From NCBI GenBank assembly GCA_003514455.1, contig DOQH01000037.1, forward strand, positions 1-31,013: a stretch of DNA of 31,013 bases. The letters are read 5' to 3'. This document shows, piece after piece, positions 13,870 through 22,574 of the stretch. Origin of the DNA: Candidatus Magasanikiibacteriota bacterium (lineage in GTDB: Bacteria; Patescibacteriota; Patescibacteriia; Magasanikbacterales; UBA10003). Positions within the stretch are counted from its first letter, which is position 1. Every line of letters starts with the position of its first letter. Under the pieces are notes generated by a model. That model ran no database searches, was not told the origin of the DNA, and worked only from the letters and a program-made list of their open reading frames with translations. The position numbers and the translations under genes were made by a program.

Positions 13870-14391
13870 TTAAGCTTTAGATTTTTGATAAGCGTTAAGA
13901 ACTTGCACCAAACCGCGCAAATTACCGGCTAAAACATTGACAATTCCTGAAATCGGCGATTGCAAAGAACCAACCAATTTTGCCAGAAGTTCGGGCTTGC
14001 TTGGTAATTTGGCCAAAAAGCCGATTGCTGTTTTGTCTACAGTCTTCCCTTCCAAAATACCACCAAGGATTTTTAGGGCCTCATGTTTTTTGGCAAAATC
14101 AGCCAACATCTTGGCTGGAGCAACTTCGTCTTCCAATCCGCAAGCCATTGCATAAGAGCCATCCATGCTGTCAGGATTAAAATCCAAACCTGCATTTTTA
14201 GCAGCAATGCGGATTAATGTTTTTTTGGCCACGCCATAGGAAATTTTTTGACCCTGGCAAAGCCGACGCAATTCAGTAATATCTTTGACTTTCAAACCTT
14301 TGAAATCAGCAAAAACAGCTGACTTCATTTCCTTAAAAGTTTTGGTCAAATCAGCTACGATTTGCGTTTTTTCATCTCGTGTTTTTGGCAT
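13870..14391 (-). CDS. rplJ: Ribosomal protein L10
   Basis: uL10, the base of the ribosomal stalk, which binds 23S rRNA and L7/L12 dimers; 173 residues, normal length. Seen: VADLTKTFKEMKSAVFADFKG, VKDITELRRLCQGQKISYGV, AKKTLIRIAAKNAGLD, a central GGILEGKTVDKTAIGFLAKLPS and a C-terminal helix (GLVQVLNAYQKSK) that holds L7/L12. rplK and rplA are not adjacent, unlike in many bacteria. No Shine-Dalgarno is visible in the TTTATAT stretch before the ATG. The upstream region is an L10 leader with its own promoter, so L10 probably regulates its own synthesis. Confidence 0.98.
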   Translation of the reverse strand: MPKTRDEKTQIVADLTKTFKEMKSAVFADFKGLKVKDITELRRLCQGQKISYGVAKKTLIRIAAKNAGLDFNPDSMDGSYAMACGLEDEVAPAKMLADFAKKHEALKILGGILEGKTVDKTAIGFLAKLPSKPELLAKLVGSLQSPISGIVNVLAGNLRGLVQVLNAYQKSKA

Positions 14392-14524
14392 ATATAAACA
14401 AAAAATCTGTGTTTTACCACAGAAACTACGGTTTGCTTCGACCTTAATTTGCCTAAAATAGGCAAAATCAGCTCAAACCTCGGCAGGCAATTAAGGCCAA
14501 ATCGGCCACCTGCTGTCTATGGTT
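14392..14524 (-). ncRNA. Ribosomal L10 leader RNA
   Basis: The RNA between the rplJ promoter and ATG has the conserved blocks of the L10 leader family: GACAGCAGGTGG (minus strand of 14506-14517), CCTGCCGAGGT (14487-14477) and a 3' block with AAGGTCGAAGCAAACC. Stems seen: closing stem CCATAG (14522-14517) with CTGTGG (14422-14417); CCTTAATT (14496-14489) with AATTAAGG (14449-14442); and a local hairpin TTTGCCT/AGGCAAA near 14465-14448. The closing stem and the terminator stem cannot form together. By established knowledge of this leader, L10(L12)4 binding controls rplJL expression. Confidence 0.85.
14401..14423 (-). terminator. Attenuator terminator of the rplJ leader
   Basis: On the minus strand: stem TCTGTG (14423-14418), loop GTAAAA, CACAGA (14411-14406), then TTTTTT ending about 9 nt before the ATG of rplJ. 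It lies inside the leader, so it must act conditionally. Its 5' arm overlaps the 3' strand of the leader closing stem (CTGTGG, 14422-14417). Confidence 0.8.
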
Positions 14525-14530
14525 ATCTGT

Positions 14531-14558
14531 ATTATACAGGATATAAAAAAGGTGTCAA
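14531..14558 (-). promoter_or_regulatory. Strong consensus promoter of rplJ-rplL
   Basis: On the minus strand, TTGACA (14558-14553), a 16-nt spacer, then TATAAT (14536-14531): both boxes match consensus exactly. The expected start at about 14524 falls right at the 5' edge of the L10 leader closing stem. It lies just downstream of the 59-aa ORF. Confidence 0.93.
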
Positions 14559-20048: not shown

Positions 20049-22508
20049 TTAAATAACTATATTCACCAATTTTTCCTTCACATAAATCACTTTTTTTGGT
20101 GTTTGGCCGGAAAGCCATTTTTGAATTGTCGCGCTCTCCAACGCTTTTTCTTTAGCTACATTTTCGGTTAATTCATCAGCTGAAATTTCAAATTGATCGC
20201 GTAATTTTCCGTTCACCTGCACGACAATAATTTGAGTTTGATCCTTGGCTTTGGTAGCGTCAAACTTCGGCCAAGCGGCAAAAATAATGGATTTCTTTTC
20301 GCCCAAGGTCTGCCACAACTCTTCGCACATATGCGGGGCAAATGGAGAAAGCAGCTGCAACAAAATTTTGTAATCCCACACTGAAATTTTGGCCAAATCA
20401 GCAAAAGCATTTGTTAAAATCATCAAAGCGGAAATGGCTGTATTAAATCGCATGGTGTCAATATCAGCTGTAACTTTTTTAATTGTTTGGTGAAGCAAAG
20501 ACTCAACGGACGATTCACTACCGCCCAACTTATCAGCCAATCCCCAAACCTTATCCAAAAATCGCCTCACGCCAACGAGCCCTTGAGTGCTCCAAGCGCA
20601 TGGTTGGTCAAACGGCCCCATAAACATTTCGTAAACGCGCATAGCATCAGCGCCATAATTCAAAATTACATCATCGGGATTTATAACATTGCCCCAGCGT
20701 TTACTCATTTTGCGTCCGTCTTCGGACAAAATCAAACCAACATGCTGCATTTTGACAAACGGCTCTTCATGACTCACAACGCCGATGTCAAATAAAAATT
20801 TGTGCCAAAAACGAGCATAAATCAAATGCCGTGTAGCGTGCTCTGCCCCGCCAATATAAATATCCACCGGCGACCAATATATTTCTTTGTCCTTATCCAC
20901 CAAGGCCTTATTATTATACGCGTCAATATAGCGGAGATAATACCAGCACGACCCTGCCCACTGCGGCATAGTATTGGTTTCTCGTTTGGCCGACCCGTTG
21001 CATTTGGGACATTTGGTATTGACCCATTTGTCAATTTTCGCCAAAGGCGATTCACCTGTGCCTGTTGGTTCGTATTTATCAACTTTGGGCAATTCCACAG
21101 GCAAATCCTTTTCAGGCACAGGCACCCAACCACACTTGACGCAATAAATCAAAGGAATCGGCTCGCCCCAATATCTTTGTCTAGAGAAAACCCAATCACG
21201 AATTTTATAATTTACATGTCGTTTGCCAAAATTATTTTTTTCCAACCATTGAATCATTTTTTCTTTGGCTTCGACTGTTGTCAAACCATTTAAAAAATCG
21301 GAATTTACATTCACGCCATTCGCTATAAACGCAGCTTTAATAACATCACCGCCTTTAACAACTTCTTTAATTTCCAATCCGTATTTTTTCGCAAACTCCC
21401 AATCGCGCTCGTCGTGCCCTGGCACAGCCATTATGGCGCCGGTTCCATAGCTCATTAAAACATAGTCCGCAATCCAAACTGGCAATTTCTCGTCATTCAC
21501 AGGATTTATTGCCTTAACCCCTTTTAATTCTACGCCATTTTTTTCTTTTGCCAAATCAGTGCGCTCCAAATCGCTTTTGTTTTTCACCTTGGCAATATAT
21601 TTCTCAACTTCCTGCCTGTTAGTGATTAGCTGTAAATTATCCGCCACTAAAGGATGCTCCGGCGCAACAACCGTATATGTAGCGCCAAAAAGAGTGTCGG
21701 GTCGGGTGGTGAAAATTTTTAAAATGTCATTGCGAGGAGCCGGAGGCGACGCGGCAATCTCCGCATTTTTATCACGAGATTGCTTCGCTTCGCTCGCAAT
21801 GACACTGAATGCCACCTCCGCCCCTTCGCTTTTCCCAATCCAATTTTTTTGCATGCCTTTAATTGATTCCTCCCACTCGGACAATTTTTCCAAATCATTA
21901 AGTAGCCGTTCCGCGTAGTCGGTGATTTTTAAAACCCACTGACGCATTGGTTTGCGTTCAATTATAGTGCCACATCTTTCGCACTTGCCGTCTTCCAAAT
22001 CCTCATTTGCCAGTCCGGTTTGGCAAGACGGACACCAATTGATTGGTTCATTTGATTCAAACGCCAAACCTCGTTTGAACATTTGTAAAAATGCCCATTG
22101 CGTCCATTTGTAATATTGCGGGTCAGTGGTATTTATTTCTCTGTCCCAATCATAAGTAAAACCCAATGTTTCCAACTGTCTTTTGAAAGTGGCAATATTA
22201 CGCTCCACGGCTTCGCGCGGATGCACATGATTTTTCAAAGCGTAATTTTCCGCAGGCAAACCAAACGCGTCCCAACCCATTGGATGCAAAACATTAAAAC
22301 CTTGCGCCATTTTCATTCTGGAAATAACATCAGTGGCAATATATCCCTTAGGGTGCCCAACGTGCAGGCCTACGCCAGAAGGGTATGGAAACATATCCAA
22401 AATGAATTTCTTTGGTTTGCTAAAATTGTTCGATACGCGAAAAATCTTCTCATTCTCCCAGTACTTTTGCCACTTTTTCTCAATTTTTTGCGGATTGTAC
22501 TTATCCAT
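20049..22508 (-). CDS. leuS: Leucyl-tRNA synthetase with a repeat-derived insertion
   Basis: Class I synthetase that charges tRNA-Leu; 819 residues from MDKYNPQKIEKKWQKYWENE (the longer reading to 22568 crosses the terminator hairpin and is rejected). Signature sites: MFPYPSGVGLHVGHPKGY (HIGH motif as HVGH), zinc-type CPSCQTG and CERCG, editing domain entry FTTRPDTLFGATY with GTGAIMAVPGHDERDWEFA, second cluster CPKCNG, and KMSKR in place of KMSKS. The C-terminal anticodon-binding region (PFAPHMCEELWQTLGEKKS) is intact. About residues 235-261 (SVIASEAKQSRDKN and EIAASPPAPRNDI) are translation of a palindromic element at 21725-21804, between WIGKSEGAEVAF and the editing domain. First gene of a nine-gene unit. 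Confidence 0.96.
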   Translation of the reverse strand: MDKYNPQKIEKKWQKYWENEKIFRVSNNFSKPKKFILDMFPYPSGVGLHVGHPKGYIATDVISRMKMAQGFNVLHPMGWDAFGLPAENYALKNHVHPREAVERNIATFKRQLETLGFTYDWDREINTTDPQYYKWTQWAFLQMFKRGLAFESNEPINWCPSCQTGLANEDLEDGKCERCGTIIERKPMRQWVLKITDYAERLLNDLEKLSEWEESIKGMQKNWIGKSEGAEVAFSVIASEAKQSRDKNAEIAASPPAPRNDILKIFTTRPDTLFGATYTVVAPEHPLVADNLQLITNRQEVEKYIAKVKNKSDLERTDLAKEKNGVELKGVKAINPVNDEKLPVWIADYVLMSYGTGAIMAVPGHDERDWEFAKKYGLEIKEVVKGGDVIKAAFIANGVNVNSDFLNGLTTVEAKEKMIQWLEKNNFGKRHVNYKIRDWVFSRQRYWGEPIPLIYCVKCGWVPVPEKDLPVELPKVDKYEPTGTGESPLAKIDKWVNTKCPKCNGSAKRETNTMPQWAGSCWYYLRYIDAYNNKALVDKDKEIYWSPVDIYIGGAEHATRHLIYARFWHKFLFDIGVVSHEEPFVKMQHVGLILSEDGRKMSKRWGNVINPDDVILNYGADAMRVYEMFMGPFDQPCAWSTQGLVGVRRFLDKVWGLADKLGGSESSVESLLHQTIKKVTADIDTMRFNTAISALMILTNAFADLAKISVWDYKILLQLLSPFAPHMCEELWQTLGEKKSIIFAAWPKFDATKAKDQTQIIVVQVNGKLRDQFEISADELTENVAKEKALESATIQKWLSGQTPKKVIYVKEKLVNIVI
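21725..21804. repeat. 80-bp palindromic repeat inserted in frame in leuS
   Basis: Ends are a perfect 12-bp inverted repeat: TGTCATTGCGAG (21725-21736) and CTCGCAATGACA (21793-21804). An inner dyad GCAATCTC (21754-21761) / GAGATTGC (21776-21783) surrounds a short AT loop. The sequence matches the widespread ..CATTGCGAG..GCAATCT.. type of dispersed repeat. It adds about 27 residues to LeuRS without breaking the frame. Confidence 0.9.
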
Positions 22509-22525
22509 ATTTATGCTATATATTT

Positions 22526-22559
22526 TAACAAAGAAAGGCGCGTATGGCAATACGCGCCT
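22526..22559 (-). terminator. Rho-independent terminator after the eamA-glycosidase unit
   Basis: On the minus strand: AGGCGCGTAT (22559-22550), loop TGCC, ATACGCGCCT (22545-22536), followed by TTCTTTGTT. A perfect 10-bp GC-rich stem with a T-rich tail, located 15 nt after the glycosidase-like gene stop and before leuS. TATATA about 8 nt before the leuS ATG could be a -10 box, but no -35 box is visible. Confidence 0.85.
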
Positions 22560-22574
22560 GTTCATCATTAAATC

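Follow-up and report, generated by a model that had tools for sequence, protein, structure and literature searches.

The closest described counterparts of the element reported here are the Rickettsia palindromic elements (RPE; Ogata et al. 2000, 2002), which sections of PMC10969869 and PMC3733652 present as dispersed palindromes lying in frame in conserved genes and translated with them. A further point of reference is the superfamily of CGTC-tagged REPs (Di Nocera et al. 2013, PMC3733652), for which the sections consulted give a tag of the form CGTC, TGTC or CCTC, a stem of 8-9 bp starting with AT, a loop of 4-5 nt and a 3-nt tail that is mostly CCA. According to the same sections, dimers of these repeats encode 20-30 amino acids inside genes and no dedicated transposase accompanies them; REPs occur in tRNA synthetases of three species, a single case of insertion at the same site is given (recB in two Xanthomonas), and no hotspot shared by several families is reported there. 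In-frame REPs are already known, then, in Rickettsia and in several REP-rich bacteria, and the new part is a single loop of leucyl-tRNA synthetase (LeuRS) that is a hotspot for multiple families. No report of this LeuRS loop as an insertion site was found in the openly available literature, judged mostly by title, and the literature match for CPR bacteria with a LeuRS insertion (PMC8629427) is, in the part consulted, on genetic codes.

The locus resembles RPE in that repeats are inserted in frame in protein genes, here those for LeuRS, MurC, RsmI, an EpmA-like protein and a GT4 glycosyltransferase; it differs from them in its CPR host, in the structure of its 80-bp dimer (units of about 29 and 37 nt) and in the convergence of several families on one loop. 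With the CGTC-tagged REPs it shares the TGTC variant of the tag, a stem that begins with AT and a translated dimer inside genes. In contrast with them, the outer stem of our unit is 5 bp long, with an inner hairpin that differs between copies, in place of an 8-9-bp stem with a 4-5-nt loop, and the tail is CTC rather than CCA. Although the unit behaves like a CGTC-tagged REP, it departs from the superfamily in stem and loop geometry and in the CCA tail, both of them defining features, and we have therefore not filed it there. Short palindromic units in inverted pairs also recall the REP/RAYT (GTAG) system, but a GTAG tag is absent here and the only Y1 gene found has no unit in its 2.9-kb locus. 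The terminal inverted repeats, perfect arms of 12 bp, are shared with MITEs, from which the element differs in that there is no target-site duplication at leuS.

The element in leuS and its place in the protein

The window, by which we mean the whole stretch of 31,013 nucleotides that was analysed, belongs to the genome of an uncultured bacterium (G000), a draft of 766,759 bases in 50 contigs that is 95% complete. The features discussed below are the following.

20049..22568, minus strand: leuS open reading frame, encoding LeuRS (from the open reading frame, its translation, homologues and Pfam)
22508, minus strand: conserved MDKYNP start of leuS, giving a product of 819 amino acids
21725..21804, minus strand: 80-bp REP-like dimer, translated as VIASEAKQSRDKNAEIAASPPAPRND, LeuRS residues 236-261
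21725..21761, plus strand: REP unit 1, composed of TGTCATTGCGAG, an inner hairpin and GCAATCTC
21776..21804, minus strand: REP unit 2, in opposite orientation to unit 1, TGTCATTGCGAGCGAAGCGAAGCAATCTC
21725..21736, plus strand: left arm of the outer 12-bp inverted repeat
21793..21804, plus strand: right arm of the outer 12-bp inverted repeat
21754..21761, plus strand: left arm of the inner 8-bp dyad
21776..21783, plus strand: right arm of the inner 8-bp dyad

The preliminary description of this DNA had proposed that a CPR-type genome has a palindromic repeat translated in frame within an essential synthetase whose core motifs are intact on both sides, and our analysis bears this out. The coordinates that it gave for the element, the perfect terminal arms and the inner dyad are all exact, the minus-strand open reading frame reads through the element, and the motifs HVGH and KMSKR are both intact in the translation. 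The protein is a LeuRS of Magasanikbacteria type (named matches such as P0003), and its closest solved structures are bacterial LeuRS. As RNA the element forms a hairpin of -35.7 kcal/mol, and its fold departs from that of shuffled sequences with z scores of -5.9 for DNA and -4.8 for RNA, none of 200 shuffles being as good. Rfam has no family at the 80-bp element; elsewhere in the window it recognises a ribosomal protein L10 leader (RF00557, 62 bits) at 14391-14540 on the minus strand. Four of the six frames are open across the element, and the 12 full units of the genome (see below) average 4.6 open frames against 3.8 for random segments of the window, so that the repeat is only mildly predisposed to translation.

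Two statements of the preliminary description need to be revised. The insert had been placed before the editing domain, yet it lies inside it, the Pfam match to PF13603 covering residues 221-423. It had also been credited with about 27 added residues, whereas the net gain over the commonest loop of the relatives, 16 residues, is 20, because such a loop has lost some 20 nt here. In the alignment with Thermus LeuRS, WIGRSEG is followed by a strand and then by a short turn, at which the insert falls. An AlphaFold2 model (55 sequences, mean pLDDT 84.9, pTM 0.79) flanks it with strands at residues 226-238 and 261-267, the first three residues of the element extending strand one and its last residue beginning strand two; the only segment of at least three residues below pLDDT 50 is 241-258. 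In this structure prediction, which had been proposed as a check, the insert appears as the one low-confidence segment between two strands, and it presumably forms an external loop. The synthetase with its insert is probably made and active.

Copies of the unit and other genes that carry it

Two copies of a widespread REP-like unit, facing in opposite directions, make up the insert. The full unit consists of GTCATTGCGAG, a variable inner hairpin and then GCAATCTC; its ends are constant between copies, its outer stem of 5 bp is ATTGC/GCAAT, and its length in G000 ranges from 28 to 49 nt. Allowing one mismatch, TGTCATTGCGAG occurs 22 times in this 767-kb genome (3 times for the reversed control pattern), and the full-unit pattern GTCATTGCGAG-N0-30-GCAATCTC is found 12 times, against none for its reversed control, which is absent from all 57 genomes searched. 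The TGTC tag is present in 11 exact 12-mers, its first base being variable in some of the others. All 12 units start with GTCATTGC, a feature fixed by the design of the pattern; the CTC tail, too, is required by the pattern, but it is also present in the unrestricted listing. A chance palindrome is ruled out by copy number and fold statistics. The preliminary description would have been refuted by a stretch conserved among relatives in a genome free of other copies, and what we find is different: the search that it recommended returned the copies just counted, and LeuRS of the close relative P0004 has a loop of 16 residues at this place.

Beyond the host, 44 full units are present in the congener G001 and at least one in 14 of the 57 genomes, G000 included, with none in G002 and G003 of the same family. 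An exact 30-mer of unit 2, one base longer than the unit itself, is contained in at least 119 stretches of named genome contigs; many phyla are represented among the matches listed, in which single records may reflect cross-contamination of metagenome bins.

Other units of G000 lie inside open reading frames for MurC, RsmI, an EpmA/LysRS-like class II synthetase, a GT4 glycosyltransferase and the C-terminus of Lgt, as well as inside one further frame that has no Pfam match. A single Pfam match spans the insert in MurC, RsmI and the EpmA-like protein, and in the GT4 glycosyltransferase the insert sits between two domains. MurC was matched in 14 of 23 genomes searched: the insert is absent in seven (G001 and six others), six could not be parsed and one is G000 itself. 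The RsmI insert is absent in all three relatives compared, and that of the EpmA-like protein is common to G000 and G001 and absent in G002, G029 being unparsed. As a separate observation, the RsmI insert (L009, about 1445-1510) looks composite, a GTCATTTGAAGAATCCC-like piece adjoining a GTCATTGCGAG unit.

No dedicated transposase for the units was found in the 95% complete draft of G000. The single Y1 transposase gene of the genome, IS200-like by our own reading, encodes 142 amino acids (L078, 1477-1905, on contig C10), and no REP unit is present in its 2.9-kb locus; matches to ATTGCGAG in this locus are all mismatched, and their number, 3, is no more than chance would give (2.98 expected). 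A RAYT as driver was accordingly rejected, the only Y1 gene found being of this size and having no unit nearby.

The same loop in related bacteria

At the protein level we compared 121 LeuRS, query included, the 120 homologues being the best 120 of 7,996 matches to the insert-bearing query; the loop was parsed in 119, two rows being dropped, and P0002, a near-self entry, was not counted as an independent witness. The loop has 14-20 residues in 77 of the 119 proteins, and in others this point is occupied by domains or by repeat-like peptides that are unrelated to each other. At the DNA level 149 loops were available. Fifty belong to the order set (57 genomes searched, 55 loci read and 49 loops parsed, with G048 added from another locus), and 99 come from 120 further genomes of the phylum, for which 136 genomes were searched, 125 matched, five overlapped the order set and 120 loci were read, 21 of their loops remaining unparsed. 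The loop is of 18 residues or less in 89 of the 149, of 19-70 residues in 50, and holds whole domains (more than 70 residues) in 10. Among the 50 loops of 19-70 residues, 7 contain inverted arms that pair perfectly over 10 bp or more, as do 3 of 1149 length-matched control windows taken from the same loci; with a threshold of 8 bp the counts are 15/50 and 58/1149. The other 35 loops of this size class do not have such arms, and many long loops are therefore not clear palindromes.

Among the longer loops there are at least four GTCAT-tagged REP families and also unrelated palindromes, with family assignments made by eye. Within the order, GTCATTGCGAG units occur in G000 with G001, in G032 and in G055, GTCATTCCCGC units in G025 and G033, GTCATCC(T/A)GAG units in G038 and G048 with a remnant in G014, and GTCATTCCGA units in G043 and G051, as well as, with one mismatch and up to the contig end, in G046; to these are added a CCCCTCC palindrome in G044 and GGGGACTGTCCCC in G006. 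In the wider phylum we recognised GTCATTCCGG in G118, GTCATCCTGAA in G080 and G129, a composite in G166 and other inverted repeats in G065, G066 and G132. These inserts belong to repeats that are dispersed in their own genome, wherever the search pattern covers them. Copies of the GTCATTCC(C/G)G type number 120 in G118, 49 in G025 and 43 in G033 (the pattern, GTCATTCC followed by any base and G, cannot match the GTCATTCCGA family of G043 and G051), and those of the GTCATCCTGA type number 55 in G048, 49 in G014, 37 in G038, 29 in G080, 16 in G166 and 12 in G129. The leuS unit of G080 has three identical copies elsewhere in its genome.

In evolutionary terms, the distribution of these families can be read on a tree of 54 LeuRS of the order built with the loop columns left out, in which the loop was read in 50 rows and 13 were labelled; G046, with a contig that ends inside the insert so that only its start is visible, was left unlabelled. 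The 13 labelled rows need 12 changes, and hence only G000 and G001, in which the insert occupies the same leuS site with substitutions of its own in G001, share an event. The turn is a recurrent landing site, entered independently by different repeat families and by whole domains, and among the sites of LeuRS the turn of the first editing hairpin is the one that most often keeps such DNA. REP motifs elsewhere in leuS are rarer: they lie at about P0004 residues 665-734 in G005, G019, G023, G044 and G055, at residues 555-608 in G033 and G048, and at the very C-terminus in G001. Other matches in leuS to an 11-mer with one mismatch, where no partner motif accompanies them, were taken as chance.

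Several observations on LeuRS architecture may be recorded separately, the identity of the loop domains having been read from sequence, with Pfam for some proteins. A serine (alpha/beta) hydrolase-like domain of about 190 residues lies in the same editing-domain hairpin of eight genomes of the phylum: G082, G152, G179, G125, G091, G094, G072 and G064 (loci L364, L353, L344, L346, L355, L361, L343 and L367, respectively). It is also found at the LeuRS loop of P0017, P0021 and P0034, and the same hairpin holds an RdgB/HAM1-like domain in G008 and a HAD-like domain in G059. Nudix and further hydrolase domains are present inside LeuRS of the order (e.g., P0009, P0015, P0028, P0048), and split LeuRS matches have breaks near P0001 residues 386-395 and 455-460. 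Short tandem repeats of about seven bases occupy the hairpin in G019, G020, G124, G158 and G173. The insert-free P0004 has another repeat-like peptide, SVIPSGARSAEPRDP, near residue 680, in the linker before the anticodon-binding domain.

Arrival and retention of the inserts

In all 11 loops of the form GTCAT...ATGAC, a count that leaves out G032, G033, G038 and G014, which have no second arm, an excess of 7-20 nt remains when the net gain over a loop of 16 residues is subtracted from the length of the insert; the reference for this apparent loss of native bases is the modal loop of relatives, not the true site before insertion. MurC, similarly, has 38 nt of repeat for a net gain of 33 nt over G001. 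By inspection, the leuS flanks (AAAA and CTGA) contain no target-site duplication. Clean transposition with target duplication was rejected on both grounds, the lack of duplication at leuS and the apparent loss of native bases at leuS and MurC, and a copying or repair event that replaces few bases would fit the sequences better than clean insertion.

We consider it very probable that two inverted REP-like units entered leuS and are translated there in place of the turn of the first CP1 editing beta-hairpin, that the same turn has been entered repeatedly in the phylum and that the core of the enzyme has been kept. In molecular terms, a dimer of GTC-tagged short palindromes would have taken the place of the hairpin turn in such a way that the first strand runs on through its terminal GTC-ATT codons (V-I) and the second starts with its final D. 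Most of the residues between them, predicted without confident structure, would presumably form a flexible external loop, leaving the enzyme core unaltered. The elements would then be selfish or neutral DNA that persists where the structure tolerates it, and may have arrived by a copying process that replaces few native bases, such as template switching or the action of a transposase in trans.

A different reason for the retention of the inserts might lie in the nucleic acid itself, for example in a strong hairpin in mid-gene at which ribosomes would slow down as they reach the editing domain, or in a protein-binding site, and we regard such a role at the DNA or mRNA level as unlikely, even if some data speak for it. 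Between G000 and G001, codons for identical amino acids show a single synonymous change among 32 in the leuS and EpmA-like inserts taken together, against 275 among 910 in the rest of the two genes (Fisher p 0.0003), or 128 among 492 when the comparison is restricted to codons that occur in the inserts (p 0.002); the EpmA-like insert alone gives 0/10 vs 81/268 (p 0.04). Along leuS, DNA identity is 91% in the element and 85% in the rest, with dN of 0.08 vs 0.07 and dS of 0.15 vs 0.79. Synonymous change inside the two shared inserts is lower than a neutral translated spacer should show, a point against our main reading and a hint of constraint on the DNA or of conversion between copies. Moreover, 11 of the 12 outer pairs of the leuS element are still perfect in G001, and the stability of the RNA hairpin points in the same direction. 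However, the test concerns two inserts in one species pair and was chosen after inspection of the data, and gene conversion would look alike; selection on the palindrome, conversion by other copies or parallel insertion could each cause the deficit, with the similar spacer between the leuS units of the two genomes speaking for common descent. Third-position differences as few as those of the leuS insert are met in 13 of 764 windows of 26 codons, its non-synonymous change is ordinary (equalled in 43% of such windows), and the single synonymous change sits in the inner dyad. Many relatives, finally, have a short loop, of at most 18 residues in 89 of the 149 loops.

The same predominance of the short turn, the commonest state, argues against co-option of the peptide by LeuRS, be it as a docking loop or as an extended hairpin with an influence on tRNA binding or editing. 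Whole domains do sit on this hairpin in 10 of the 149 loops and in further homologues, but between genera the inserted peptides have neither sequence nor length in common, and the loop is without confident structure in the model, which makes this explanation improbable. An artefact of assembly or binning, with a repeat stitched into leuS, would be conceivable given that repeats break assemblies and that the contig of G046 ends inside such an insert. Yet the separate genome of the same genus, G001, has the insert at the same place with its own substitutions, and the reading frame is kept in the parsed loops; we consider this possibility extremely remote.

Our preferred reading, the entry of palindromic repeats into a tolerant turn of the editing domain, adds CPR bacteria to Rickettsia and the few others known to have translated palindromic repeats. 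More tentatively, and with considerable doubt, the first LeuRS editing hairpin could be seen as an evolutionary port of these organisms, through which unrelated repeats, and then whole enzymes of serine hydrolase-like and RdgB/HAM1-like type, may enter repeatedly, the REPs being under DNA or RNA selection, or converted by other copies, while they are translated. If this were true, one sequence would be read both as protein and as palindrome. The loop of one essential enzyme, with independent repeat families across the phylum and insert-free relatives, provides a natural replicate experiment, which makes it testable how far structure decides the survival of mobile repeats in genes, whether inserts originate by replacement or by clean insertion, and whether the presence of repeat peptides prepares a site for later domain insertion.
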